DNA of 64,000 bases, taken from Rhodopseudomonas faecalis. Its GTDB lineage: Bacteria > Pseudomonadota > Alphaproteobacteria > Rhizobiales > Xanthobacteraceae. Below are positions 4,498-22,374 of the stretch, piece by piece; positions within the stretch are counted from its first letter, which is position 1, and every line of letters starts with the position of its first letter. The translations under genes and the position numbers were made by a program. The stretch spans positions 186,001 to 250,000 of the forward strand of contig NZ_QJTI01000003.1 of NCBI RefSeq assembly GCF_003217325.1, written 5' to 3'. Below the pieces are notes generated by a model. The model was not told the DNA's origin. It was given only the letters and a program-made list of their open reading frames with translations, and did not search any database.

Positions 4498-4664
4498 GGG
4501 GAATCTCCTGCCTCTCTGCCCTCCTAGCGCCGACCGCCGGTGCTGTCGAGCAGTGCTCGGAATCGAACACAACGTGTGGCCGCTGCGTGATCCGGGTTGA
4601 CCGTAACGGGCCGCCCGCTATAGTCCGCCCGCTTCGCGATGTCGGCGCTGCCGAGGTCGCGCGG

Positions 4665-4749
4665 GCCCCTGTGGCGGAACTGGTAGACGCGCTCGACTCA
4701 AAATCGAGTTCCGCAAGGAGTGCTGGTTCGATTCCGGCCAGGGGCACCA
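4665..4749 (+). tRNA. tRNA-Leu (anticodon CAA)
   Basis: The 85-nt gene begins GCCCCTG and ends CAGGGGC-A-CCA, giving a perfect 7-bp acceptor stem with an encoded CCA. The anticodon stem CTCGA/TCGAG encloses the loop CTCAAAA, placing CAA at positions 34-36 (reads UUG). A long variable arm (TTCCGCAAGGAGTG region) and a GGTTCGATTCC T-loop fit a class II leucine tRNA. No integrase or duplicated tRNA 3' end was seen near it. Confidence 0.95.
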
Positions 4750-6665
<1,916 letters not shown>

Positions 6666-11394: not shown

Positions 11395-11423
11395 AACCCG
11401 GCTCTGCATGGCAGAACCGGGTT
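11395..11423 (-). terminator. Intrinsic terminator of the PFOR/nfn operon
   Basis: On the minus strand, a stem AACCCGGTTCTGC / GCAGAGCCGGGTT with a CAT loop and one mismatch is followed by TTTCATTT. It lies about 50 bp after the stop of the nfn-like gene at 11476. Confidence 0.85.
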
Positions 11424-11475: not shown

Positions 11476-14310
11476 TCAGGCGAAGCCGTGCTTTTTCTTG
11501 CTCTCCAGCTCCTGGGTCTTGAACTGGTTGAAGCGCGGCAGGAACTTGTCCCAATCGATGATGTGGGCGTCGATTTCCGGGCCGTCGATGCAAGCGTGCT
11601 TGCGCACCATCTTGCCGTCGATGGTCACCGGCACCATGCAGGCGCCGCACATGCCGGTCGCGTCCACCATGATCGAGTTGAGGCTGGCCACCGTCTTCAC
11701 GCCATACGGCTTGGTGAGGTCGGACACCGCCCGCATCATCAACGGCGGACCGATCGCGATCACTTCCGCGATCTTGCGGCCCTTGCCCTGCTGATTGGCC
11801 TTCAGCATCTCCTCCAGCGGACCGGTGACGAAGCCCTTCACGCCGAACGAGCCGTCATTGGTGGTGTAGATCAGCTCGAGCTGGTCGCCGAACTCCTTCT
11901 TGATCTGGCCCATGCGTTCGTCTTCGCCGGTCCAGAACAAGAACTCCTTGGCCCGGAAGCCGGAGATCAGCGTGACGTGGTTGCCGAGCTTCAGGTGCTC
12001 GCGCAGGATCGGATAGACCGGCGGCAGACCGACGCCGCCGGCGCAGAACACCACGGTCTCATCCTTGCCGTAGTGATGCAGCTCCGAAGCGCGGCCGAGC
12101 GGGCCGGCGATGCCGCTGAAGGCGTCGCCGATCGCCATCCGGTTGATCTCCAGCGACGAGGTGCCCATGCCCTGCACGACCAGATCGATGGTGCCCTTTT
12201 CGGCATCCCAATCGGCCAGCGTCAGCGGGATCAGTTCGCCCTTCTCCCACGGCAGCACGCGCACGAACTGTCCGGCCTTGGCCGAACGCGCCACCATCGG
12301 CGCCCGCACCGTGAACTCAACGATGCCACCAGCGAGCGGCACCTTGTTGACGATGGTCTGCGCCACCTGGCCGAGCTCGGTGTAGCGCGCCGCACGTTCG
12401 ACGCGGTCCTTGATCTCGGCCGGGGTGAACGGGATCTCGCCGACGATCTCGCGCGCCGCCGCCTGGCCGTCGCCGGCCGCGCGGATCGCGGTGGAGCCGC
12501 CACGGGCAGCGTCGCCGCCGGTGTAGACGTCCTTGATCGAGGTGCGCTGCGAACCCTGCTCGACCTCAATGGTGCCCCACTTGTTGGTCTTCAGGCCCGG
12601 CTCGGCGTCCTTCATGATCGGGTTGGCGGTGTTGCCCAGCGCCATGATCACGAGGTCCACCGGCACGCGCTCGATTTCGCCGGTCGGCTTCGGGCTGCGA
12701 CGGCCGGACTTGTCCGGTTCGCCGAGCTCGTTGACGTCCAAGAGCGCGTGGGTGACGAAGTGGGTGTGGTCGTCGCCGATGAACTCTCGCGGCGCGCGCA
12801 GCACCTTGAGGTTGATGCCTTCTTCGAGCGCGTGATGCAGTTCTTCGACGCGCGCCGGCATTTCGCTCTGGGTACGGCGATAGACGATGGTGACGTTGGC
12901 GCCGAGCCGCTTGGCGGTGCGGGCCGCGTCCATCGCGGTGTTGCCGCCGCCGATCACGAACACTTCCTTGCCCTTGGTCTCGGGCAGCGGCGTCTCGTAG
13001 CGATCGTCCAGGCCGCGCATCAGGTTGACGCGGGTCAGGAACTCGTTGGCCGACATCACGCCCAAGAGATGCTCGCCGGGCACGTTCATGAAGGTCGGCA
13101 GACCCGCGCCGGTACCGACGAAGATCTTCCAAAAACCCTCAGCCTTGAGGTCTTCCAGCGTCGCGGTCTTGCCGACCACGAAGTTCTTCACGAAGCGGCC
13201 GCCGAGCAGCGTGATCTTCTCGACCACGTCGTCGATCAGCGTGTTGGGCAGACGGAATTCCGGAATGCCGTAACGCAGCACGCCGCCGAGATCGTGGAAC
13301 GCCTCGAAGATCGTGACCGGAAAACCTTCCACCGCCAGCAGATAGGCGTTGATCAGACCGGACGGACCGGAGCCGACCACCGCGATCGGCGGCTTGGTGG
13401 CCGCCGCCCAGGGCGAGATCCGGCCCAGGAAGCGATCATTGGCGTTCGGTTCGACCAGCTTCTGATGCTCGGGCAGATACCATTCGATCTGACCGATTTC
13501 GATCGGACGCTTGGTGTGGGTGCAGACGCCCTGGCACTGCAGTTCCTGCGGGCACACGCGGCCGGTGACGTTCGGCAGCGGGTTGCAGCTCTCGATCAGC
13601 TCGAGCGCTTCGCGGTGCTTGCCGTTGCCGAGCAGGTCCAGCATCTCGGGGATGTGGATCTTGACCGGGCAGCCGCCCTTCGGCTCGCTCTTGCCGTGGA
13701 TCAGCACGCCGAGTTCGCACGGCTTGTCGTCGCACTGCTTGTCGCGCATCACTTCGAGCCAGACGAACAGCTCGCATTCACGCACGCTGTAGCCGAGCGA
13801 CTGGTAACCAAGGTAGCCCTGGTTGACGAGTTCGAAGTCGATCGAACGTTCTTCCGCCGGACGAATGTAGGGCGGAATGAACGCTTCGCCCGGCCAGCCT
13901 TCCGACAGATTTTCGAACATCGGGTAGCGATCGCGCAGATGCACGTCGATCGCCTTGATGAACTTGCGCTTGAACTTGAGCGGCAGCGCCCAGATGAAGC
14001 GCTGCAGGATGATGCTCATGTCATCGCCGCGCGCCAGCAGATTCCACAGCGTCGCGGTGAACGCGGCGCCGAGTTCGGGCTGCTGGAACTCCCAGACCAG
14101 AGCCTGGGAGCCGTCGGCGATGAACATGCTGCGCAGCGACGCCGGGTCATTGACCAGGCGCTTCTGCAACAGCGCGAGCTGCTTCTGGAACACGCTGACA
14201 GCTTCGCTGTTCTGCAGTTCCTCCAGTTCGCTCCGTGCTGTGTCAAGCACGGTGCGAGCCTGTTCGTAGCGCTTCAGTTCGTCAGTGGTCATGCCGGTGG
14301 CGCCGCTCAT
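11476..14310 (-). CDS. Fused NfnB-NfnA-like NAD(P)H:ferredoxin oxidoreductase (GltD-like + FNR/SudB-like)
   Basis: This 944-aa protein has three visible parts. Residues 1 to about 165 are an extension I do not recognise (coiled-coil-like start, then helices). About 165-650 is a GltD/NfnB-like flavoprotein. It has a Cys-rich Fe-S segment ending in GRVCPQELQCQGVC, a first dinucleotide fold IAVVGSGPSGLINAYLL near residue 308, and a second, VFVIGGGNTAMDAARTAKR, near 450. About 660-944 is an NfnA/SudB-like ferredoxin reductase with GQFVRVLP, AGGVGLPPVYPI and a [2Fe-2S] ligand motif GMCGACMVP near 885, with the final Cys in KHACIDGPE. NfnAB catalyses reversible, often bifurcating, electron transfer between ferredoxin and NADH/NADPH; normally these are two subunits. 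The ATGA overlap with the upstream PFOR gene implies that the PFOR ferredoxin is the partner. Bifurcation itself is unproven. Confidence 0.85.
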   Translation of the reverse strand: MSGATGMTTDELKRYEQARTVLDTARSELEELQNSEAVSVFQKQLALLQKRLVNDPASLRSMFIADGSQALVWEFQQPELGAAFTATLWNLLARGDDMSIILQRFIWALPLKFKRKFIKAIDVHLRDRYPMFENLSEGWPGEAFIPPYIRPAEERSIDFELVNQGYLGYQSLGYSVRECELFVWLEVMRDKQCDDKPCELGVLIHGKSEPKGGCPVKIHIPEMLDLLGNGKHREALELIESCNPLPNVTGRVCPQELQCQGVCTHTKRPIEIGQIEWYLPEHQKLVEPNANDRFLGRISPWAAATKPPIAVVGSGPSGLINAYLLAVEGFPVTIFEAFHDLGGVLRYGIPEFRLPNTLIDDVVEKITLLGGRFVKNFVVGKTATLEDLKAEGFWKIFVGTGAGLPTFMNVPGEHLLGVMSANEFLTRVNLMRGLDDRYETPLPETKGKEVFVIGGGNTAMDAARTAKRLGANVTIVYRRTQSEMPARVEELHHALEEGINLKVLRAPREFIGDDHTHFVTHALLDVNELGEPDKSGRRSPKPTGEIERVPVDLVIMALGNTANPIMKDAEPGLKTNKWGTIEVEQGSQRTSIKDVYTGGDAARGGSTAIRAAGDGQAAAREIVGEIPFTPAEIKDRVERAARYTELGQVAQTIVNKVPLAGGIVEFTVRAPMVARSAKAGQFVRVLPWEKGELIPLTLADWDAEKGTIDLVVQGMGTSSLEINRMAIGDAFSGIAGPLGRASELHHYGKDETVVFCAGGVGLPPVYPILREHLKLGNHVTLISGFRAKEFLFWTGEDERMGQIKKEFGDQLELIYTTNDGSFGVKGFVTGPLEEMLKANQQGKGRKIAEVIAIGPPLMMRAVSDLTKPYGVKTVASLNSIMVDATGMCGACMVPVTIDGKMVRKHACIDGPEIDAHIIDWDKFLPRFNQFKTQELESKKKHGFA

Positions 14311-17300
14311 CGGATGATCTCCGCGTCGCAGTTGGCCGCCGCACGGCTGAGCTTGGCCGACAGTTCAGGGGTGACCTTGATCTTGTTGAACACGCCCGGG
14401 ATCACGTGAGCGACGTCCTTGCTGGCGCCGCCGACCACGATCTTGGTGAGTTCGAACACTTCAGGGACGTCCTGATAGCAGCTCTTGCAGTTGGTGCACT
14501 TGTCGAGATCGGACTCGGCAATGTCCACCGGGGAGGCGCCGTTGCCGTTCGCCGGCTTGGCACCGTTGGTCGCAGCCGCCGCGGCCGGAGCCGGAGCGAG
14601 CCCAGCCATCAGACCGGCGAAACCGCCAGCCGCCGGAGCATTCGAGGACGCCGCCAGTTCGCTCATGCCACGCGCGATCTGATCGAGCGAGCTTTCGCGG
14701 GCCTTCACCGACTCTTCATACTGGTGCTGCAGCGACTCGAGCTCAGCGCGATGGCTCTCGTCCAGCACGCGGATGTCGTAGCCGCCGAGATACTGCAGCG
14801 TGCGCCAGTAGCGGCGACGCTCCTCGACCAGCTTGATCACCGCCGCGCCGACCGAAAGCTTGATCAGCTTCTTGTCGCCATCGGTGGCGTAGATGAACGG
14901 CGTCTTGCCAGCGCGGGCGTCGGCATCGAGCGCCACGTAGTCGGCCACCGGCACGCCATCGGCATCAGCCTTGAGCGGCTTGAACTGCTTGCGGAAGCGG
15001 ACTTCGGTGTAGGCGAAGTCGGCCGGGGTCACCGGGGTCTTCAAGAGCTGGGTAGCACCGTTGTCATCGACATATTCGATCGACTGGGTGGCCCAATCCT
15101 GATCGGCTTCCGGGTTGCCGTCGAGCGAGAACCAGTTGTTCAGCTTCGAGCCCTTGCGCGGGTCGTGCACGAACACCGGGTTCATGCGGCTCTCCACCGC
15201 CTTGCGGGCCTGACGGTTGGCGACCGCATCGCCGATGCCGTGCTCAGCCTGGCAGGGGGTGTAGACGTCGAGCACCGCCGGGGAGTCGGTGTAGGTCAGG
15301 AACTCCAGCACGTTCTTCATGAAGTGACCCTGCAGCGCAGTCGAGGTCTGGATCACGAAGACGTTCGGGTGGAACGAGGCGATCAGGCCGAGTTCCTTAC
15401 GGGATTCCTGCTTACCGGTGTTGGCGATGCCGAAGCGCGACAGGTCGCTATCCTGACCGGTCAAGCTCGCGGTCGAGGTCTGACCGCCGGTGTTGGAATA
15501 GGCACCGGTGTTCAGCACCACCACCTTGATCGGGGTCGAGGTCGACAACAGACGCGACAGCGCGCCGAAGCCGATGTCGTAGGTCGCACCGTCGCCGCCC
15601 ATCGACAGCACGGTCGGCACCAGCGCCCGTTCTTCCGGCGAGAACTGATTCCAGCCGAAGTAACGGAAGTAGCCGTCGTGCTTGCTCGGCTCATAGGCAT
15701 CGCCGAGTTCGAGCTTGGCGACACGCAGCGCACGGAAGTCGTCGGACGCCTGCGCGATCAGACCTTCAAAGATACCCTTGGCAACGGCCGGAGTGTCCTG
15801 GAACAGGCTGTTCACCCACGGGTCGGTGTAGGGGTTGAAGGGGAAGGTCGAGGCGTACACGCTCGAACAGCCGGTGGCGTTGGCGATCACCATGCCGGAC
15901 GGGCCGTTGCCGGTCGGGCCGCTCTCGAACAGGTAGAGCCGCTTTTCCAGCGTCTTCATGGTGCGCTCGATGCGCTCGCGGCGGGCCGCGTCGGTGACGC
16001 TGTCACGCTTGGCCGAGAGCTTCTCGATCAGGCTTTCCAGCTCGCGCACGTGGTCCTTGCGGCGCTTGTCGTGCAGCGCGTGGTTGGTCGCGGTGACCAG
16101 ACGGATCGCGGTGACTTCGCCGCAGCCGCGGCAGGCACCGTGGCCGCCCGTGGTCGCGTAGTAGTTGGCGCGATCGAGGATCAGACGCTTGGTTTCGCCG
16201 TCGGGCTTGGTGGCGCCATCGACGAACCGGGCCGGGGTGTTGGCGGTGCGGCTGAAGAACTCGAAGCTACCCTGCAGCTTGTCCAGCAGCGCCTCGTCCT
16301 GCTCACGTTCCACCAGCGCGCCGGGGCCGCAGACGTCAACGCATTCCAGACAGCCGGTGCACTTCCACGGATCGACGTTCACCGAATACAGACCGCCGGA
16401 GCCCGGCTGGTTCTTCTCGGCCGCGTCGAAATACGGACGGGTGCGGGCCACCGGGAACACCGAGAGCGCCGCGGCGAGCTTGCCGAAGTTACGCTTCAAG
16501 GTGGCGTTGTCGGTGTCGATCGCCTCGGCCGCCTGCGCCACGATCTCGTGGAACGGCTTGTCGTCCTTGCCGGCGCGATACATCTCGCGCACCGCCTCGC
16601 TCAGCGCGTGGACGTGAGCGCTCAGCGCGTCGCGCTGCGCCGGGGCGATGTCGAGCTGCTTGATGGCCGAGGCCAGCAGCTCATGGATGTCGTGCACGCC
16701 GTTCGGGATCGCGGCATCCGGGCAGACCAGCGCGCATTCCAGACAGCCGGTGCACTGATCCGGGTTGAACTCCGGAACGTTGCGGCGGAACAGACCCTTG
16801 TCCTTCATGGCCGCCGAACCGGCGGGCATGAACATGCCGATGCCGGGCAGCACCGGGGCGTCGGCAATGGTGCCGTCGCGGAACGGGCCGGCGAGCACGT
16901 CGTCATAGTACTGCGGATCGAAGATGCCGGAGGCCTGGGCCGGACCGGCGACGCGGCACATCGAGGCCGAGATCGACACGTCGCGCTTGGCCTTCGGCGC
17001 GGCCTGGACTTCGGCTTCGGCGAATTCCGGCGCGTCGTAATTGACCTGCTGGGTCGCTTCCGAACCCTCGCGGATCACCGCCATGTTGCCTTCGACGATG
17101 TCGCCACCCTTCGAGCCGAACTTCTTGGAGATCTGCTGACGGATCTTGGTGAGCATCGCGTCGCGCGAAGCGTCGGCCACCACGCGGTCGACATGGCCGC
17201 ACACCGCGCCGATGAAGGCGATACCCATCATGCGGGTTTCGAGTTCGGCGGTCGGGGCGTGGCGCTTGGCCACCGCGAAGGCGTCGATCACATAGAACTT

Positions 17301-19298
17301 GATCTTCTTGTCGCGGATGGTCTGCCGCGCCTTGGCCGGCAGGTCACGCCACACTTCGAGCGGCGACAGGTTCGACTGCAGGATGAAGGTGCCGCCGGCG
17401 ACCAGGCCGCGCAGCGGGTTGGCATGCACGAACACCTTGTGGTCCGGCGAGATCACGATCTCGACGTCTTCCAGATCGGCGTTGGTGATCTTCACCGGCT
17501 CCGGCGACAGGGTGATGTAGTAGTTGGTCGGCGCGCCGCTCTTTTCCGAGCCATACTTCGGCGCGGACTTCGAGCGCATGTCGAGCACGCCGGCCAGAAT
17601 GTCGGTGAGCAGCTTGCCCGAGGCGATGGTGCCGTAGCCGCCGATCGAGTGGAAGCGGATGCGGAACGCCGAGGGCGGCAGCAGCTGCGGGTTCGGGCCG
17701 GTTTCCAGCGCCATCAGCTGGGTTTCCGGATAGGCCGCCTTCAGGCGATCCTGCAGCGCCGCCATGCGCGGCGACGGATTCTTCGAGAAGAACTGCGTGC
17801 CGAGATAGACGAACGGCGCGCTCTTTTCCTTCTCCATGTTCTCGAAGCAGGCGATCATGTCGCGCGGCTGCAGGTCGTGCGCGCCGAGACCGAAGATCGC
17901 GGTGGTGATCTTCGGCAGCTTGTCGATCGCCGGGATGCCAGCGTGGCGGACGCCGACGTCGCCGTTCTCACGCGCCTTGCACAGCGCCTGGGTGACGAGC
18001 GTGGTGAGCGCGGTGACTTCCGAACGCTCCAGCACGGTGACCGACTTCTTGCCGGCCAGCGCCGCGACCAGTTCGGCCTCGGGGAACGGCTGCAGCATCT
18101 TGATCGAGATCACGCCGACCTTCTTGCCCTGGCCGCGCAGATAGGCAGCGACCGCCTCGGCGTCGTCGGTGACCGAGCCGAGACCAACCACCACGTGCTC
18201 GGCGTCGTCGGCCATGAAGCTCATCACCGGCTGATATTCACGGCCGGTCAGCGCTGCGTATTCGCGCATCGCTTCCTTGACGAAGTTCGGCACCGCGCTG
18301 ACGAAGTGAGTGCGGTGATCGACCGCGCCGGCCTGGAAGTCCGGCTGGTTCTGCACGCCGCCGGTCAGGCCCGGATTGTCGACGTCAACCAGCGCCGGCA
18401 CCAGCTGGCGGGTGCCCTTCTCGGGCGCGTTGATCCACTGGCGCTTCCACTGCGCATGCAGTTCTTCCGGCACGTATTCCAGCGAGCCGGCGATCAGCTT
18501 GCCTTCGGAATCGGTCTCGACGGTGTCAGCGCGGCCGTCCAGATAAGCGATCAGCTTTTCCAGGTCGGAGGCGATGAAGTCGGCCTTGTGGCGGGCGAGA
18601 TACTGCTTGAGCTGGAACACGCGGCCCTTGGCGCCGTACAGCATTTCCTGCGCCACGGTCGGGCACTTGATGCGGCCGGCCGGGTCGCCGAGGAATTCGC
18701 GCAGCAGCTCGGGCTCCGGCATCAAGGCTTCGCTGAGCATGTGCGAGGTGGCGAAGCCGTCCATCGCATTGGCGACCGGGATCAGCGACATCGCGCTGAC
18801 CTTGTAGGAGATCGCGGCGAGGTCAGCGGCTTCCTGCGGATTGGAGCCGAACAGAATGGTGTAGCCGGACGGCAGCAGCGCATAGACGTCGTCATGGCCG
18901 GCCATCACGTTCAGCGAGTGCTTGGACACCACGCGCGCGGCGACCTGCAGCACAAAGCCGCCGACCTTCTTGCCAACGGTGACGTAATGCGATTCCAGGC
19001 CGTACAGAATGCCCTGGCTCGACGAGGCGTTGGAAACGAACTTGCCACCCGTCAGCGCCGCACCGAGCGCGCCGGACTGGGCCGAATGCTCACCTTCCGG
19101 CTCGAAGAAGAACGGATGCTTGCCCCAGACGTTGCAGCCGCCGGACGAACGGAACGCTTCATAAATTTCGGAAATTTCCGTCGAGGGGGTGATCGGGTAG
19201 CCGATGACGCCACCGCAGACATGCCCCATCACTTGGGCGACGGCACCGTTGCCGTGAATGACGGAGGGAATGCCAGGATATTTTGCGTTCATTGTCAT
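14307..19298 (-). CDS. Pyruvate:ferredoxin (flavodoxin) oxidoreductase with fused C-terminal ferredoxin
   Basis: This 1663-aa single-chain 2-oxoacid oxidoreductase is much longer than NifJ-type PFORs (about 1170-1200 aa). In order, the pyrimidine-binding domain (IGYPITPSTEISEIYEAF) is followed by the gamma domain (FHSIGGYGTIASGKLL). Two [4Fe-4S] motifs follow, CTGCLECALVC near 845-857 and CTGCLECVDVC near 978-990. The TPP domain has CRGCGE near 1055, a coiled-coil insert, GDGATYDIGFGALS near 1233 and AYSNTGGQTS. An Ala/Pro/Gly/Asn linker then leads to a C-terminal ferredoxin domain with CTNCKSC near 1601 and a last Cys in NCDAEII. It would oxidise pyruvate (or another 2-oxoacid) and CoA to acyl-CoA and CO2. 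The fused ferredoxin suggests built-in electron delivery to the next gene. The divergent upstream region holds an FNR/FixK box. The symbol nifJ fits only the core. Confidence 0.9.
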   Translation of the reverse strand: MTMNAKYPGIPSVIHGNGAVAQVMGHVCGGVIGYPITPSTEISEIYEAFRSSGGCNVWGKHPFFFEPEGEHSAQSGALGAALTGGKFVSNASSSQGILYGLESHYVTVGKKVGGFVLQVAARVVSKHSLNVMAGHDDVYALLPSGYTILFGSNPQEAADLAAISYKVSAMSLIPVANAMDGFATSHMLSEALMPEPELLREFLGDPAGRIKCPTVAQEMLYGAKGRVFQLKQYLARHKADFIASDLEKLIAYLDGRADTVETDSEGKLIAGSLEYVPEELHAQWKRQWINAPEKGTRQLVPALVDVDNPGLTGGVQNQPDFQAGAVDHRTHFVSAVPNFVKEAMREYAALTGREYQPVMSFMADDAEHVVVGLGSVTDDAEAVAAYLRGQGKKVGVISIKMLQPFPEAELVAALAGKKSVTVLERSEVTALTTLVTQALCKARENGDVGVRHAGIPAIDKLPKITTAIFGLGAHDLQPRDMIACFENMEKEKSAPFVYLGTQFFSKNPSPRMAALQDRLKAAYPETQLMALETGPNPQLLPPSAFRIRFHSIGGYGTIASGKLLTDILAGVLDMRSKSAPKYGSEKSGAPTNYYITLSPEPVKITNADLEDVEIVISPDHKVFVHANPLRGLVAGGTFILQSNLSPLEVWRDLPAKARQTIRDKKIKFYVIDAFAVAKRHAPTAELETRMMGIAFIGAVCGHVDRVVADASRDAMLTKIRQQISKKFGSKGGDIVEGNMAVIREGSEATQQVNYDAPEFAEAEVQAAPKAKRDVSISASMCRVAGPAQASGIFDPQYYDDVLAGPFRDGTIADAPVLPGIGMFMPAGSAAMKDKGLFRRNVPEFNPDQCTGCLECALVCPDAAIPNGVHDIHELLASAIKQLDIAPAQRDALSAHVHALSEAVREMYRAGKDDKPFHEIVAQAAEAIDTDNATLKRNFGKLAAALSVFPVARTRPYFDAAEKNQPGSGGLYSVNVDPWKCTGCLECVDVCGPGALVEREQDEALLDKLQGSFEFFSRTANTPARFVDGATKPDGETKRLILDRANYYATTGGHGACRGCGEVTAIRLVTATNHALHDKRRKDHVRELESLIEKLSAKRDSVTDAARRERIERTMKTLEKRLYLFESGPTGNGPSGMVIANATGCSSVYASTFPFNPYTDPWVNSLFQDTPAVAKGIFEGLIAQASDDFRALRVAKLELGDAYEPSKHDGYFRYFGWNQFSPEERALVPTVLSMGGDGATYDIGFGALSRLLSTSTPIKVVVLNTGAYSNTGGQTSTASLTGQDSDLSRFGIANTGKQESRKELGLIASFHPNVFVIQTSTALQGHFMKNVLEFLTYTDSPAVLDVYTPCQAEHGIGDAVANRQARKAVESRMNPVFVHDPRKGSKLNNWFSLDGNPEADQDWATQSIEYVDDNGATQLLKTPVTPADFAYTEVRFRKQFKPLKADADGVPVADYVALDADARAGKTPFIYATDGDKKLIKLSVGAAVIKLVEERRRYWRTLQYLGGYDIRVLDESHRAELESLQHQYEESVKARESSLDQIARGMSELAASSNAPAAGGFAGLMAGLAPAPAAAAATNGAKPANGNGASPVDIAESDLDKCTNCKSCYQDVPEVFELTKIVVGGASKDVAHVIPGVFNKIKVTPELSAKLSRAAANCDAEIIR

Positions 19299-19514: not shown

Positions 19515-19528
19515 TTGACGCGCATCAA
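19515..19528. promoter_or_regulatory. FNR/FixK/AadR-type binding site
   Basis: TTGACGCGCATCAA matches the FixK/FNR-family consensus TTGA(T/C)-N4-ATCAA at every conserved position. It is 217 bp upstream of the PFOR start codon and 239 bp upstream of modE. Low-oxygen control of the PFOR/nfn operon is the natural inference, since PFORs are oxygen-sensitive and this regulator family operates in Bradyrhizobium and Rhodopseudomonas. Confidence 0.65.
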
Positions 19529-19766: not shown

Positions 19767-20558
19767 TTGTCGATCGAAGCCAGCATTACCCTAAAGACTA
19801 AGAATGTCGCGGCGGTCGGCCGCGATCGAATCCGGCTTTTGCAGGCGGTCGCGCGCGAGGGCAGCATTGCCGCCGGCGCCCGGGCCGCCGGACTGACCTA
19901 CAAGGCCGCCTGGGACGCGCTCGACGCGATGACCAATCTGTTCGGGCAGCCGCTGCTGGAGCGGCGCACCGGCGGCAAATCGGGCGGAGGCGCCCACCTG
20001 ACCCCGACCGGACTGCGGGTGATCGAAGCCTTCAACCGGCTGGAAGCGGAAATGGCACGGGTGATCCGCGCGCTCGAGCCGGAGCTCGCCGGCAGCGGCA
20101 TCACCCCCAGCAATCTGGTCTCGGGATATTTTATGAAAACCAGCGCTCGCAACGCTTTGCGCGGCACCATCACCGCGATCACCGCCGATACGCTCAATGC
20201 CGAAGTCGCGGTCGCGGTGGCCGAGGACACCACGATCTACGCGCTGGTGACCAGCGAGAGCGCCGACAATCTCGGGCTGTGCGTCGGCCGCGAGGTGGTG
20301 GTGCTGATCAAGGCGCCGTTCGTGATGATCGCCCCCGGCCGCGAGCCGCCCAAAACCTCGGCGCGCAATTGCGTGCAGGGCACGGTGCGGCGCTGCGAGG
20401 TGTCCGGCGTCCACGCCGAGATCGTGCTCGACGTCGGCGCCGACAAGACGTTGGCGGCATCGATCACCGCCGCCAGCGCCGCCGACATGCGGCTCAACCC
20501 TGGCAGCCCGGCCTGTGCGGTGTTCGACGCCGCCCATGTGCTGATCGCGATCGATTGA
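19767..20558 (+). CDS. modE: Molybdate-responsive transcriptional regulator ModE
   Basis: The 263-aa protein has a LysR-like winged-helix N-terminus (RIRLLQAVAREGSIAAGARAAG...AAWDALDAM, about residues 20-60, then LLERRTGGKSGGGAHLT). Two tandem Mop/TOBE domains follow, each beginning with the same kind of motif: TSARNALRGTITAI (about 124) and TSARNCVQGTVRR (about 194). It binds molybdate and represses Mo-transport genes. The start appears to be TTG 19767, preceded by a GGGAGCTGGGG stretch; no ATG is available near the conserved N-terminus. It heads the modEABC operon and has its own operator directly upstream. Confidence 0.93.
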   Translation: MSIEASITLKTKNVAAVGRDRIRLLQAVAREGSIAAGARAAGLTYKAAWDALDAMTNLFGQPLLERRTGGKSGGGAHLTPTGLRVIEAFNRLEAEMARVIRALEPELAGSGITPSNLVSGYFMKTSARNALRGTITAITADTLNAEVAVAVAEDTTIYALVTSESADNLGLCVGREVVVLIKAPFVMIAPGREPPKTSARNCVQGTVRRCEVSGVHAEIVLDVGADKTLAASITAASAADMRLNPGSPACAVFDAAHVLIAID

Positions 20559-20679
20559 GGCGGCCGATGACGCCGTTCCCCACGCGCTCATTGCAGTTCG
20601 GCACCCGGCCTCGCAGCGGCCGGCCGCCGCTCGCCCTTCCGTTTCTTCCCACCACCAAGCTGACCAACAGGAGAGACCC

Positions 20680-21450
20680 TTGAAGTTCATCATGCCCATC
20701 AAGCTGGCGCTGATCGGCGTCGCCGTTGCCTGCGTCACCAGCTCCCAGGCTTTGGCCGACAGCGCCAATATCGCGGTTGCCGCGAATTTCACCGAGCCCG
20801 CCAAGGAGATCGCCGCGGCGTTCAAGGCCAAGACCGGCCATGAGGCGGTGCTGTCATTCGGCTCGAGCGGCCAGTTCTTCACCCAGATCAGCCAGGACGC
20901 GCCGTTCCAGGTGTTCCTGTCGGCGGACTCCGCCCGCCCGAAGAAGCTGGTCGAAGACGGTCTGGCGGTGAAGGACAGCCGCTTCACCTATGCGGTCGGC
21001 AAGCTGGTGCTGTGGAGCAAGGAGCCTGGCCTGGTGAAGGGCGAACAGACCCTCAAGCACGGCAAATTCGCCAAGCTGTCGATCTGCAACCCGGTCGCCG
21101 CGCCTTATGGTGCCGCCGCGGTCGAGGCGATGCAGACCCTGAAGCTCTATGACGAGCTGAAGCCGAAATTCGTGGAAGGCGCCAACATCTCGCAGGCATT
21201 CCAGTTCGTGCAGACCGGCAATGCCGAGATCGGCTTTGTGGCGCTGTCGCAGGTGATCAACGACAAGGACGGTTCGCGCTGGATGGTGCCGCAAAACCTG
21301 TATTCGCCGATCACCCAGGACGCGGTGCTGCTCAAGAAGGGTGAAAACGACGAAGCCGCCAAGGCGTTCTTTGAATTCCTGAAGGGACCGGAGTCGCGCG
21401 CCATCATCGAAAAGTTCGGCTACGAGGTCCCGCCCGCCAAGGCGAGCTGA
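20680..21450 (+). CDS. modA: Molybdate ABC transporter substrate-binding protein
   Basis: This 256-aa periplasmic protein has a signal peptide (KLALIGVAVACVTSSQALAD, cleavage near residue 27). The ModA-type ligand region follows: NIAVAANFTEPAKEIAAAFKA and VLSFGSSGQFFTQI, with SADSARPKKLVEDG and the later GNAEIGFVALSQV. It captures molybdate, possibly also tungstate, for ModBC. TTG 20680 is preferred over ATG 20692 because AGGAGA lies 5-6 nt before TTG. It sits 121 bp after modE, in the same orientation. Confidence 0.93.
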   Translation: MKFIMPIKLALIGVAVACVTSSQALADSANIAVAANFTEPAKEIAAAFKAKTGHEAVLSFGSSGQFFTQISQDAPFQVFLSADSARPKKLVEDGLAVKDSRFTYAVGKLVLWSKEPGLVKGEQTLKHGKFAKLSICNPVAAPYGAAAVEAMQTLKLYDELKPKFVEGANISQAFQFVQTGNAEIGFVALSQVINDKDGSRWMVPQNLYSPITQDAVLLKKGENDEAAKAFFEFLKGPESRAIIEKFGYEVPPAKAS

Positions 21451-21505
21451 GCCTCGCTGCATGAGACCGGGCGTTTCGAGAATGGCACCAACGGAGCGGA
21501 AAAAG

Positions 21506-21651
21506 CTCCCTCTCCCCGCGTGCGGGGAGAGGGGTGGGGTGAGGGGGCGCCTCCCCCAGGCTGAGCCGCCCGACCGCGCGAACACGCCCCCTCTCCCGAC
21601 CGCCCTCGCTTCGCTCCGGCGATCGACCTCTCCCCGCATGCGGGGAGAGGT
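21506..21651. repeat. Palindromic repeat, family B copy 1 (between modA and modB)
   Basis: Two copies of a CCTCTCCCCGC-tgc-GCGGGGAGAGG-type hairpin (21506-21533 and about 21628-21651) flank a spacer. The same architecture is inside the helicase gene at 44088-44214. It separates modA from modB by 237 bp and could attenuate or stabilise the operon mRNA. Confidence 0.75.
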
Positions 21652-21687
21652 TAGGACCACCCGTCATTTCCAACTCATGTTCCAGCA

Positions 21688-22374
21688 ATGAGCGGCCTTC
21701 CCCCCGATATTTGGCAGCCGGTTCGGCTCACGGTCGAGCTGGCGGCGATGACCACCTTGATCCTTTTGATCGTCGGCACGCCGATCGCGTGGTGGCTGGC
21801 GCGCTCCAAAGCCTGGTGGAAGGAAGGCATTGCCGCGGTGGTGGCGCTGCCGCTGGTGCTGCCGCCGACCGTGCTCGGCTTCTATCTGCTGGTGCTGTTC
21901 GGACCGGATGGCCCCGGCGGCGCGCTCGCCGGTCTGTGGGGCGGCCGCACGCTGGCCTTCACCTTCGAGGGCCTGGTGATCGGCTCGGTGGTGTATTCGA
22001 TGCCATTCGTGGTGCAGCCGATCCGCAATGCCTTTGCCGCGGTCGGCGACCGGCCGCTCGAAGTCGCCGCCACGCTGCGCGCCTCGCCGCTGAAAGCGTT
22101 TTGGACGGTGGCGGTGCCGCTGGCGCGCCCGGGCTTTTTGTCCGGCGCGGTGCTCGGCTTTGCGCACACCGTCGGCGAATTCGGCATCGTGCTGATGATC
22201 GGCGGCAACATTCCCGGCACCACCAAGGTGCTGTCGGTGGCGATCTACGATTATGTCGAGACCTCGCAATGGCGTGAGGCCAATATCCTGGCCGCGGGCA
22301 TGGCCGCCTTCGCCTTTGTGGTGATCCTGACCATGATGATGCTGGAAAAACGCACCGCGCGGATCAAAGGATGA
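21688..22374 (+). CDS. modB: Molybdate ABC transporter permease
   Basis: The 228-aa protein has about five membrane segments: [66 protein letters not shown], and two more at the C-terminus. The ABC-permease EAA-like loop is [27 protein letters not shown] in variant form (RPLEVAATL...). The ModB-typical [20 protein letters not shown] follows. Its end overlaps the modC start by 4 bp (ATGA). Confidence 0.94.

Follow-up and report, generated by a model that had tools for sequence, protein, structure and literature searches.

In the pyruvate:NADP+ oxidoreductase of Euglena, PFOR is fused on one chain to a flavodoxin/P450-reductase-type module. The likeness of this enzyme to the locus described here is that PFOR would be wired to NADP+ reduction without a free ferredoxin. 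In the window (the whole analyzed stretch of 64,000 nucleotides from Rhodopseudomonas faecalis), however, a ferredoxin is fused to PFOR and the Nfn-type reductase is a protein of its own, so that two reading frames with a 4-bp overlap stand in place of the single Euglena chain. The single-chain PFORs of Moorella (6cin) and D. africanus (1b0p) have the PFOR domains and three cluster sites in common with the window protein but comprise 1171–1232 residues against 1663, the window PFOR adding insertions, a C-terminal helix, a linker and the ferredoxin. Extra C-terminal domains exist in some PFORs, for example domain VII of D. africanus.

The electron-bifurcating NfnAB of T. maritima and P. furiosus (4ylf, 5jca) shares with the second protein of the locus the folds of both halves, the N5 Arg and the [2Fe-2S] Asp-Cys3 motif, whereas the window protein is one chain in reverse order, carries an extra helical N-terminal domain, has RDx2Cx4Cx15C for RCx2Cx4Cx3C and is encoded next to a tethered donor instead of relying on a free ferredoxin. 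AadN of R. palustris, from the genus of the nearest relatives, is also a single-chain Nfn with insulated electron transfer, but it belongs to Pattern B, acts in benzoate degradation and has no PFOR partner described in the available part of that paper (PMC9973337). Closest of all is the Pattern C fused Nfn, with NfnB followed by NfnA and a length about 200 residues above that of other fusions, which occurs in Actinobacteria and Proteobacteria and is listed as uncharacterised in the accessible text of a 2019 review (Liang et al. 2019, PMC6405883). The same text describes for it no function, PFOR partner, Cys-to-Asp change or tailed PFOR. The original prediction had treated the Nfn halves as separate subunits in known systems; this does not always hold, because NfnB–NfnA fusions are already a described class (NF009415; PMC6405883, as far as its accessible text goes). 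The fusion itself is thus known, and its tie to PFOR is new: in titles and abstract openings of open-licence PMC text, we found no description of PFOR with a fused ferredoxin, of PFOR with a Pattern C Nfn or of PFOR in an rnf operon.

Gene pair and flanking elements

The following elements were located in the window:

14307..19298, minus strand: PFOR-ferredoxin coding sequence, 1663 aa, a divergent single-chain PFOR
11476..14310, minus strand: NfnB–NfnA fusion coding sequence, 944 aa, Pattern C Nfn, NF009415
11395..11423, minus strand: intrinsic-terminator-like hairpin with a 13-pair stem and a T-rich tail, about 50 bp past the fusion stop
19515..19528, minus strand: FNR/FixK-like box TTGATGCGCGTCAA, 216 bp upstream of the PFOR start

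Based on ORF coordinates and Pfam domains, the predicted arrangement of a 1663-aa PFOR with a C-terminal ferredoxin, overlapping by 4 bp a 944-aa NfnB–NfnA fusion, was confirmed. The PFOR stop and the fusion ATG overlap at 14307–14310, and a start codon with the same 4-bp overlap was found in 49 of 64 loci. The proposal that the operon has its own terminator also agrees with the data, the stem at 11395–11423 being the longest in a hairpin scan with 8 hits (expected from shuffled sequence: 6.3). Plus-strand ORFs of 1727 and 1032 aa covering both genes were taken as shadows of the conserved minus-strand frames.

The upstream box was called with a consensus that we take to represent FNR/FixK sites. 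In 30 of 66 upstream regions, compared with 1.75 expected, a box agrees with the consensus at 9 or all of its 10 scored positions. In the window, a pfkB gene is located past the terminator, and glycogen-related genes are found downstream of the pair in five loci (L058, L061, L066, L076, L077), where they lie on the opposite strand, convergent to the pair, and do not belong to the same transcript. As for a larger conserved cluster, no convincing flanking gene was widely recurrent among the matches listed: the top flanking cluster among them spans 10 groups at no more than 40% identity and resembles a low-complexity frame, and the next ones are common to about six related alphaproteobacterial loci or to two to four loci.

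Domains and cofactor sites of the two proteins

Pfam annotation of PFOR gave POR_N, PFOR_II, POR, Fer4-type motifs, TPP_enzyme_C and a C-terminal Fer4_15. The canonical PFOR domains, the TPP-binding region and three [4Fe-4S] sites are all present. The score against the pyruvate:ferredoxin oxidoreductase model TIGR02176 was 421 bits, below the cut-off of 911, and the substrate could therefore be another 2-oxoacid. The features of this protein are as follows:

16722..16754, minus strand: first 4Fe-4S motif (C849, C852, C855, C859), invariant in 66 aligned PFORs
16329..16361, minus strand: second 4Fe-4S motif (C980, C983, C986, C990), invariant in 66 aligned PFORs
16122..16133, minus strand: first Cys pair of the third cluster site (C1056, C1059); C1144 and C1349 complete the set, all invariant
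14646..14780, minus strand: long C-terminal helix, residues 1507–1551, in an AlphaFold2 model of residues 790–1663
14532..14645, minus strand: disordered Ala/Ser/Gly/Pro-rich linker, residues 1552–1589, pLDDT under 50
14310..14510, minus strand: C-terminal ferredoxin domain, residues 1597–1663 (C1601, C1604, C1607, C1657)

The alignment contained 66 rows including the window, 15 of 80 loci having been dropped by the coverage filter as contig-cut or broken copies. We assume that C1056, C1059, C1144 and C1349 hold the cluster next to TPP. T37, R122 and N1269, which are presumably functional, are retained in the window protein, and the 6cin alignment covers T37 and R122. For the insert between the two Fe-S motifs, Pfam gave nothing below E 0.069. 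The tail is a single-[4Fe-4S] ferredoxin matched by Fer4_15 over residues 1597–1663 (E 2.9e-9 for the protein).

The 944-aa protein contains Fer4_20, Pyr_redox_2, NAD_binding_1 and DHODB_Fe-S_bind domains. It shares with Pattern C Nfn (NF009415, PRK12779) the domain order, with the NfnB half N-terminal and the NfnA half C-terminal, the extra length of about 200 residues over Pattern B and a full-length match to NF009415 (residues 1–944 of 944, 1984.1 bits, cut-off 1519). Its features are given below:

13840..14310, minus strand: mostly helical N-terminal domain, residues 1–157
13669..13746, minus strand: altered entry-cluster motif R189-D190-x2-C193-x4-C198-x15-C214 (canonical RCx2Cx4Cx3C)
13483..13554, minus strand: further cluster residues C253, C259, C263 and E276, invariant
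13252..13254, minus strand: R353, aligned with an Arg of P. furiosus NfnL (EFR, 5jca_L), invariant
11479..12363, minus strand: NfnA half, residues 650–944, with an FAD/NAD domain and a [2Fe-2S] site (D883, C888, C891, C907)

For residues 1–157, Pfam returned nothing at E values up to 5, and the PDB sequence matches did not rise above chance level (best E 0.22). The main change is at the ferredoxin-entry cluster, where the first Cys is replaced by Asp (D190) in all 79 aligned fusions (79 rows including the window; 2 of 80 loci dropped by the coverage filter) and an inserted loop turns Cx3C into Cx15C. Instead of the NfnB motifs RCx2Cx4Cx3CPV and GRVCPQExQCx3Cx13Gx2ER, the fusion has RDx2Cx4Cx15CPV and GRVCPQELQCQGVCx9Gx2EW, so that the E-R after the second cluster motif becomes E-W (W in 77 of 79). 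The canonical entry-cluster motif was taken from loci L132 and L133 and from the accessible text of PMC6405883. In the NfnA half, ERxPxT is represented by GELIPLT, the Arg being replaced by Leu (L693) in all 46 aligned sequences. These changes, L693 for Arg and E-W for E-R, raise the possibility that the NADH branch or the entry site operates differently from its canonical NfnAB equivalent.

Other sites are conserved. R353, invariant in the 46 aligned sequences, corresponds to what we take to be R201 of P. furiosus NfnL. This is the position of the N5 Arg of NfnB, the presumed contact to N5 in the bifurcating FAD (PMC6405883, accessible text). The [2Fe-2S] ligands D883, C888, C891 and C907 are likewise invariant in 46 sequences, and the flavin-site residues are retained alongside them. 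In structure comparison the NfnB half resembled 5jca_L (TM 0.86 by target) and the NfnA half 5jca_S (0.89), which is the NfnI chain and its nearest solved structure. The AlphaFold model of the fusion has pLDDT under 50 at residues 248–261, 343–352 and 882–888 and does not settle the cluster ligands.

Joint occurrence of the tail and the fusion

In 77 of 80 named loci from Pseudomonadota and Actinomycetota, the fusion is immediately preceded by the ferredoxin tail; for Actinomycetota, these named loci are the evidence. Among the three loci without a seen tail, two are cut by contig ends, and L052 has none in the 301 bases available upstream. L070, considered as a ferredoxin-less PFOR beside Nfn, was rejected since a different reading frame of that stretch encodes its ferredoxin. 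Holders of the fusion include Rhodopseudomonas, Rhodoplanes, Blastochloris, Propionivibrio, Accumulibacter, Vibrio, Tetrasphaera and Bifidobacteriaceae.

The joint search of genomes for both architectures, put forward with the original prediction, could have separated the two genes and did not. Among 297 genomes of the window's order, 13 hold the fusion and all 13 have the tailed PFOR as well; in a second order (48 genomes), all 8 holders have PFOR. The second order adds little because its 8 holders all come from one genus and are genomes that also occur in another sample of this analysis. No fusion without PFOR was seen among these 13 and 8 holders, nor a tailed PFOR of this Nfn-linked family without the fusion in the 297- and 48-genome samples. 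The 77 of 80 loci and the sample of the window's order rule out chance adjacency.

Seven genomes without the fusion have an orthologous PFOR that lacks both tail and partner and is nested inside the tailed family, and a second PFOR copy in genome G212, located away from the fusion, is also tail-less and branches separately. In the tree, which omits L109 and L110 because they are truncated versions of L131 and L130, two separate tail-less branches (L087–L093; L094) fall inside the tailed family. Distances in the PFOR core correlate with those in Nfn (r 0.90, a value that none of 199 permutations attained), which partly reflects shared descent. The linkage of tail and partner is supported within this family but does not extend to a distant branch of tailed PFORs, which has rnf genes instead of Nfn. 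The PFORs of that branch sit inside rnf operons beside a flavin-type acceptor, RnfC.

Proposed electron pathway and its alternatives

Based on the above results, we suggest, with a probability of roughly 60%, that the pair forms a dedicated pyruvate:NAD(P) oxidoreductase complex, induced under anaerobic conditions, with a tethered ferredoxin, NADH as co-donor and an insulated NADPH supply. PFOR would convert pyruvate and CoA to acetyl-CoA and CO2 and pass single electrons via its three [4Fe-4S] clusters to the ferredoxin. The helix and flexible linker may act as a swinging arm carrying the ferredoxin to the adjacent Pattern C Nfn, where delivery is predicted at the remodelled entry cluster with its inserted loop and Asp, a putative ligand in place of one Cys. 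Judging by homology, electrons would then move through the proximal cluster to the NfnB FAD, the presumed site of NADP+ reduction. Since the [2Fe-2S] cluster and the NfnA FAD are retained, NADH could supply the second, high-potential electron and is probably the co-donor. The net reaction would be pyruvate + CoA + NADH + 2 NADP+ -> acetyl-CoA + CO2 + NAD+ + 2 NADPH. Its purpose may be to provide NADPH by an insulated route in cells that ferment or form storage polymers; apart from the glycogen-related neighbours, the storage-polymer link draws on general physiology.

It is possible, though considerably less probable, that the same tethered chain operates without confurcation and that the Nfn-like partner is a plain reduced-ferredoxin:NAD(P)+ reductase, a functional counterpart in bacteria of the Euglena enzyme. 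The altered entry cluster and the lost ERxPxT Arg are consistent with this, and P. furiosus NfnII reportedly lacks NAD+-dependent activity despite its close similarity to NfnI (PMC6405883, accessible text). However, the invariance of the N5 Arg and of the [2Fe-2S] site, Asp ligand included, speaks against this alternative, as does the likeness of the NfnA half to NfnI. The complex might also run in reverse, with NADPH bifurcated to reduce the tethered ferredoxin for reductive carboxylation of acetyl-CoA to pyruvate, for example in phototrophs on acetate. Rhodopseudomonas, Rhodoplanes and Blastochloris would suit such a role, but we consider it improbable, given that the other holders named above, from Propionivibrio to Bifidobacteriaceae, are not known to be phototrophs, and given the glycogen-related genes near the pair in one group; a precedent in its favor is the fused Pattern B Nfn AadN, for which a role in supplying low-potential electrons has been proposed in R. 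palustris (PMC9973337, available part). It is very hard to credit that the tail benefits only PFOR, whether by shielding it or as a general electron outlet, with Nfn merely co-transcribed. Domain VII of D. africanus and the distant tailed PFORs without Nfn would fit such a role, which does not predict that family orthologues without an adjacent fusion are tail-less; moreover, the distant PFORs too adjoin a flavin-type acceptor.

The preferred reading, a complex confurcating NADH and ferredoxin electrons, assigns a partner and a testable reaction to an Nfn class listed as uncharacterised (PMC6405883, accessible text). The Asp-for-Cys swap makes a sharp spectroscopic prediction, and the two-gene cassette is a possible tool for producing NADPH from pyruvate in engineered hosts. 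The rnf-operon parallel suggests that PFOR-to-acceptor wiring has originated or been retained in more than one context. More tentatively, and at less than even odds, tailed PFORs may constitute a superfamily of "wired" pyruvate oxidases that use a tethered ferredoxin instead of a diffusible one, with the Cys-to-Asp switch at the partner entry cluster excluding free ferredoxins. One branch would feed the confurcating Pattern C Nfn, yielding NADPH with NADH, and the distant rnf-embedded branch would feed an ion pump directly. Pattern C, used to root the Nfn tree (PMC6085437, in its available part), may then be a specialised one-donor derivative and not the Nfn root. For R. palustris, the problem of insulating electron chains has been raised (PMC9973337, available part), and the pair described here would be a natural example of such insulation by tethering.

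Gene pair and anatomy of its products

The PFOR (a pyruvate:ferredoxin-oxidoreductase-type protein) and the fused NfnB-NfnA protein (hereafter, the fusion) were located as follows:

14307-19298, minus strand, PFOR CDS, 1663 aa (ORF call)
11476-14310, minus strand, fusion CDS, 944 aa (ORF call)
11395-11423, terminator-like hairpin with a 13-pair stem

The original prediction of a PFOR with a ferredoxin after a flexible linker, overlapping by 4 bp a protein with NfnB-like and NfnA-like halves in an operon with its own terminator, agreed with the annotation. The ATG of the fusion overlaps the PFOR stop by 4 bp. Based on Pfam, PFOR domains are present in the PFOR, whose C-terminus is a Fer4_15 ferredoxin (the tail, residues 1597-1663), and the fusion contains Fer4_20, Pyr_redox_2, NAD_binding_1 and DHODB_Fe-S_bind. 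The NCBIfam model NF009415 spans residues 1-944 of 944 in the fusion (1984 bits vs. a cut-off of 1519); the PFOR falls below the canonical PFOR model (421 bits vs. a cut-off of 911). In the genome (4.07 Mb in 62 contigs), there are a single PFOR match and a single full-length fusion, the four other fusion matches being partial, with identity of at most 35%. The closest named relatives belong to Rhodopseudomonas, with fusion identity of up to 93%.

In the AlphaFold2 model of PFOR residues 790-1663 (40 sequences, mean pLDDT 74.8), a long helix (1507-1551) is followed by a stretch with pLDDT below 50 (1552-1589) and then by the ferredoxin. The linker is 25% Ala, with abundant Ser, Gly and Pro (65 sequences), and its length (up to 140) is overestimated for some sequences. 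The core cluster Cys residues are invariant in 66 sequences, and those of the tail are kept in all but one, locus L070.

The claim that NfnB and NfnA are otherwise separate subunits did not hold. NF009415 corresponds to Pattern C of Liang et al. 2019 (PMC6405883), described there as an uncharacterised fused Nfn with NfnB first, about 200 residues longer, from Actinobacteria, Alphaproteobacteria and Gammaproteobacteria. That article reports that Poudel et al. 2018 treat homologues of the Pattern C type as basal in the Nfn tree; passages of Poudel et al. 2018 itself (PMC6085437) agree, and its main text does not contain the term PFOR. In the legend of Figure 2 in PMC6405883, PFOR is one of the abbreviated gene names given for the surroundings of nfn in several microbes, and one of these cases may be Pattern C.

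Joint occurrence and history of the tail and the fusion

A scan of named genomes for the fusion gave 132 matches, of which the best 80 were taken as loci. Among these 80, which by their record titles come from Alpha-, Beta- and Gammaproteobacteria and Actinomycetes, an upstream PFOR of the window's type, whole or cut by a contig end, was found in 75. The tail and its stop precede the fusion in 77 (direct search of upstream DNA). A contig end interrupts the upstream DNA in L078 and L080, and the tail was not found in the 301 bases present upstream of the fusion in L052. Two of these loci hold more than the pair: in L063 (Rhodopseudomonas infernalis), a partial second fusion (13792-14664, query 669-944, 91% identity) lies downstream of it at a distance of about 3 kb, and in L079 (Acetobacteraceae MAG), another NfnB/GltD-like reading frame (4630-5889) follows the fusion.

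In 297 genomes of the order Rhizobiales, with only the best two candidates scored per genome in each search, a PFOR of the window's family exceeded 2000 bits in 20. A 21st match, in genome G014, was of a distant rnf type. The fusion was found in 13 of the 20, and all 13 fusion-bearing genomes had the PFOR, so the fusion did not occur in this sample without its partner gene. Extra matches to the fusion in G161 and G267 were separate NfnB proteins (48-49% identity). The other seven genomes (G180, G203, G223, G243, G260, G266, G292) have PFORs 66-71% identical to the query, with the match stopping at query residues 1536-1561, short of the ferredoxin; the fusion was absent from these genomes at E 1e-100 and was not found within 15-16 kb around their PFORs. 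In G212, contigs L098 and L099 each hold part of the pair, the tail preceding the fusion, and a second, tail-less PFOR copy (L094) has no fusion within 15 kb. The G212 fusion lies in two overlapping frames (L098:3519-6738, query 34-399 and 406-944), a break caused by assembly or decay. Among 398 genomes of Pseudomonadota, the only tailed PFORs of this family besides the window's own were eight from one genus, g202, and the fusion comes next in all eight. A sample of 48 genomes of its order gave the same eight holders and no others.

Within the window's PFOR family, no tail without the fusion was found in the order and phylum samples, but three distant rnf-type PFORs are tailed as well. In nine genomes (L095; L130, the same as L140; L131, the same as L134; L135-L139; L141), a PFOR some 1650 residues long is flanked by an RnfB-like gene on one side and an RnfC-like gene on the other. 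Of 150 genomes sampled from one order, 8 have this type, as does G014. Three of these PFORs were compared with that of the window and share about 35% identity with it. The three C-termini that were read (L095:1647-10678, L130:5367-14423 and L131:4571-13658) carry a single-cluster ferredoxin different from the window's tail. RnfB-, RnfC- and RnfG-like neighbours are supported by Pfam in L095; the next match in both L130 and L131 is RnfG-like, and RnfD- and RnfA-like sequences were recognized by eye. Possibly, an Rnf ion pump is fed here directly by pyruvate.

The PFOR core tree comprised 88 sequences (76 tailed, 9 scored as tail-less, including L070, and 3 of the rnf type). The tail-less L087-L093 are recovered as a single clade (support 1.0), and L094 groups with the tailed L097 and L100 (0.94); both groups are nested in the tailed family, although some deeper nodes among them are weak (0.15-0.65). 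The simplest account of this tree involves at least two losses of the tail, one in genomes that no longer have the partner gene (L087-L093) and one in a copy apart from the partner (L094). In L087 and L088, the C-terminus is a short stub rich in Ala and Pro. L070 (Rhodoplanes elegans) was rejected as truly tail-less, with a frame change in the linker (L070:7701-8110) and the ferredoxin in another frame. Distances of the fusion correlate with those of the PFOR core (r 0.90, 65 sequences) and of the tail (r 0.76), values reached in none of 199 permutations.

Altered entry cluster of the fusion

The model of the fusion, built from 46 sequences (mean pLDDT 81.7), matches the NfnL and NfnS chains of P. 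furiosus NfnI (5jca_L and 5jca_S) with target TM scores of 0.86 and 0.89. Residues 1-157 are mostly helical in the model, and no known relative of them was found by Pfam or PDB sequence search. The canonical NfnB motif is given as RCx2Cx4Cx3CPV (PMC6405883), whereas the fusion has RDx2Cx4Cx15CPV. D190, like R189, C193, C198 and C214, is present in 79 of 79 fusion sequences. By the dihydropyrimidine dehydrogenase ligand scheme, the lost Cys is presumably a ligand of the distal cluster, and the inserted loop adjoins this altered site. Ferredoxin is predicted to dock near the distal cluster (PMC6405883, section 8). From the motif, we infer an Asp-ligated cluster; the alternatives are that the entry cluster is lost or is present in a [3Fe-4S] form. 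The docking face can be read as remade for the tethered ferredoxin. Separate NfnB proteins with the canonical motif were also found in two genomes of the order (L132:657-2171 and L133:1131-2684) and offer a useful contrast to Pattern C.

Elsewhere, the 46 aligned fusion sequences all keep R353, the [2Fe-2S] residues D883, C888, C891 and C907, and also Y477, R478 and R479, which by analogy are assigned to the NADPH site. However, the fusion has ELIPLT where canonical NfnA has ERxPxT, and its second cluster motif is followed by E-W in place of the canonical E-R pair. Both differences count against full canonical function.

Regulation, neighbourhood and proposed function

Upstream of the PFOR, 216 bp from its start, is an FNR/FixK-like box that matches 10 of 10 positions of the consensus that we assumed. 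Boxes with 9 or 10 matches occur in 30 of 66 upstream regions (1.75 expected from mononucleotide shuffles) and are absent from 36. Of the 16 perfect boxes, 11 come from Rhodopseudomonas, four from betaproteobacterial MAGs and one from an Acetobacteraceae MAG; the box therefore does not reflect shared ancestry only. The single box of the window is weakened because a looser pattern is commoner across the window than in shuffles (27 vs. 9.9). A ModE-like regulator (HTH_1 and two TOBE domains) and modAB-looking transporter genes lie upstream on the opposite strand (19767-22374).

Widely conserved flanking genes were not found among the listed gene clusters around the loci. In five loci (L058, L061, L066, L076, L077), the opposite strand downstream of the pair carries genes for a cyclic-nucleotide-binding protein and a 4-alpha-glucanotransferase, joined in four of them by GlgX-like and GlgB-like genes (Rhizomicrobium-like group, L058:11289-16350 and L077:15715-18021; identities from Pfam for L058 and, for GlgB, L077). 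In the window, a pfkB-family kinase gene lies downstream, past the terminator.

What the analysis establishes is the gene pair, whose members occur and are missing together, with the tether, the altered motif and the upstream box. Pyruvate oxidation and NADP+ reduction would be assigned to the pair from family knowledge. Contact between the two proteins, the reaction direction and NADH as co-donor are what we infer. The fusion might instead be a plain reductase, or the pair might run the reverse reaction. The best reading is an insulated complex that would pass electrons from pyruvate to NADPH, and the glycogen-related and pfkB neighbours would fit anaerobic use of stored sugar.
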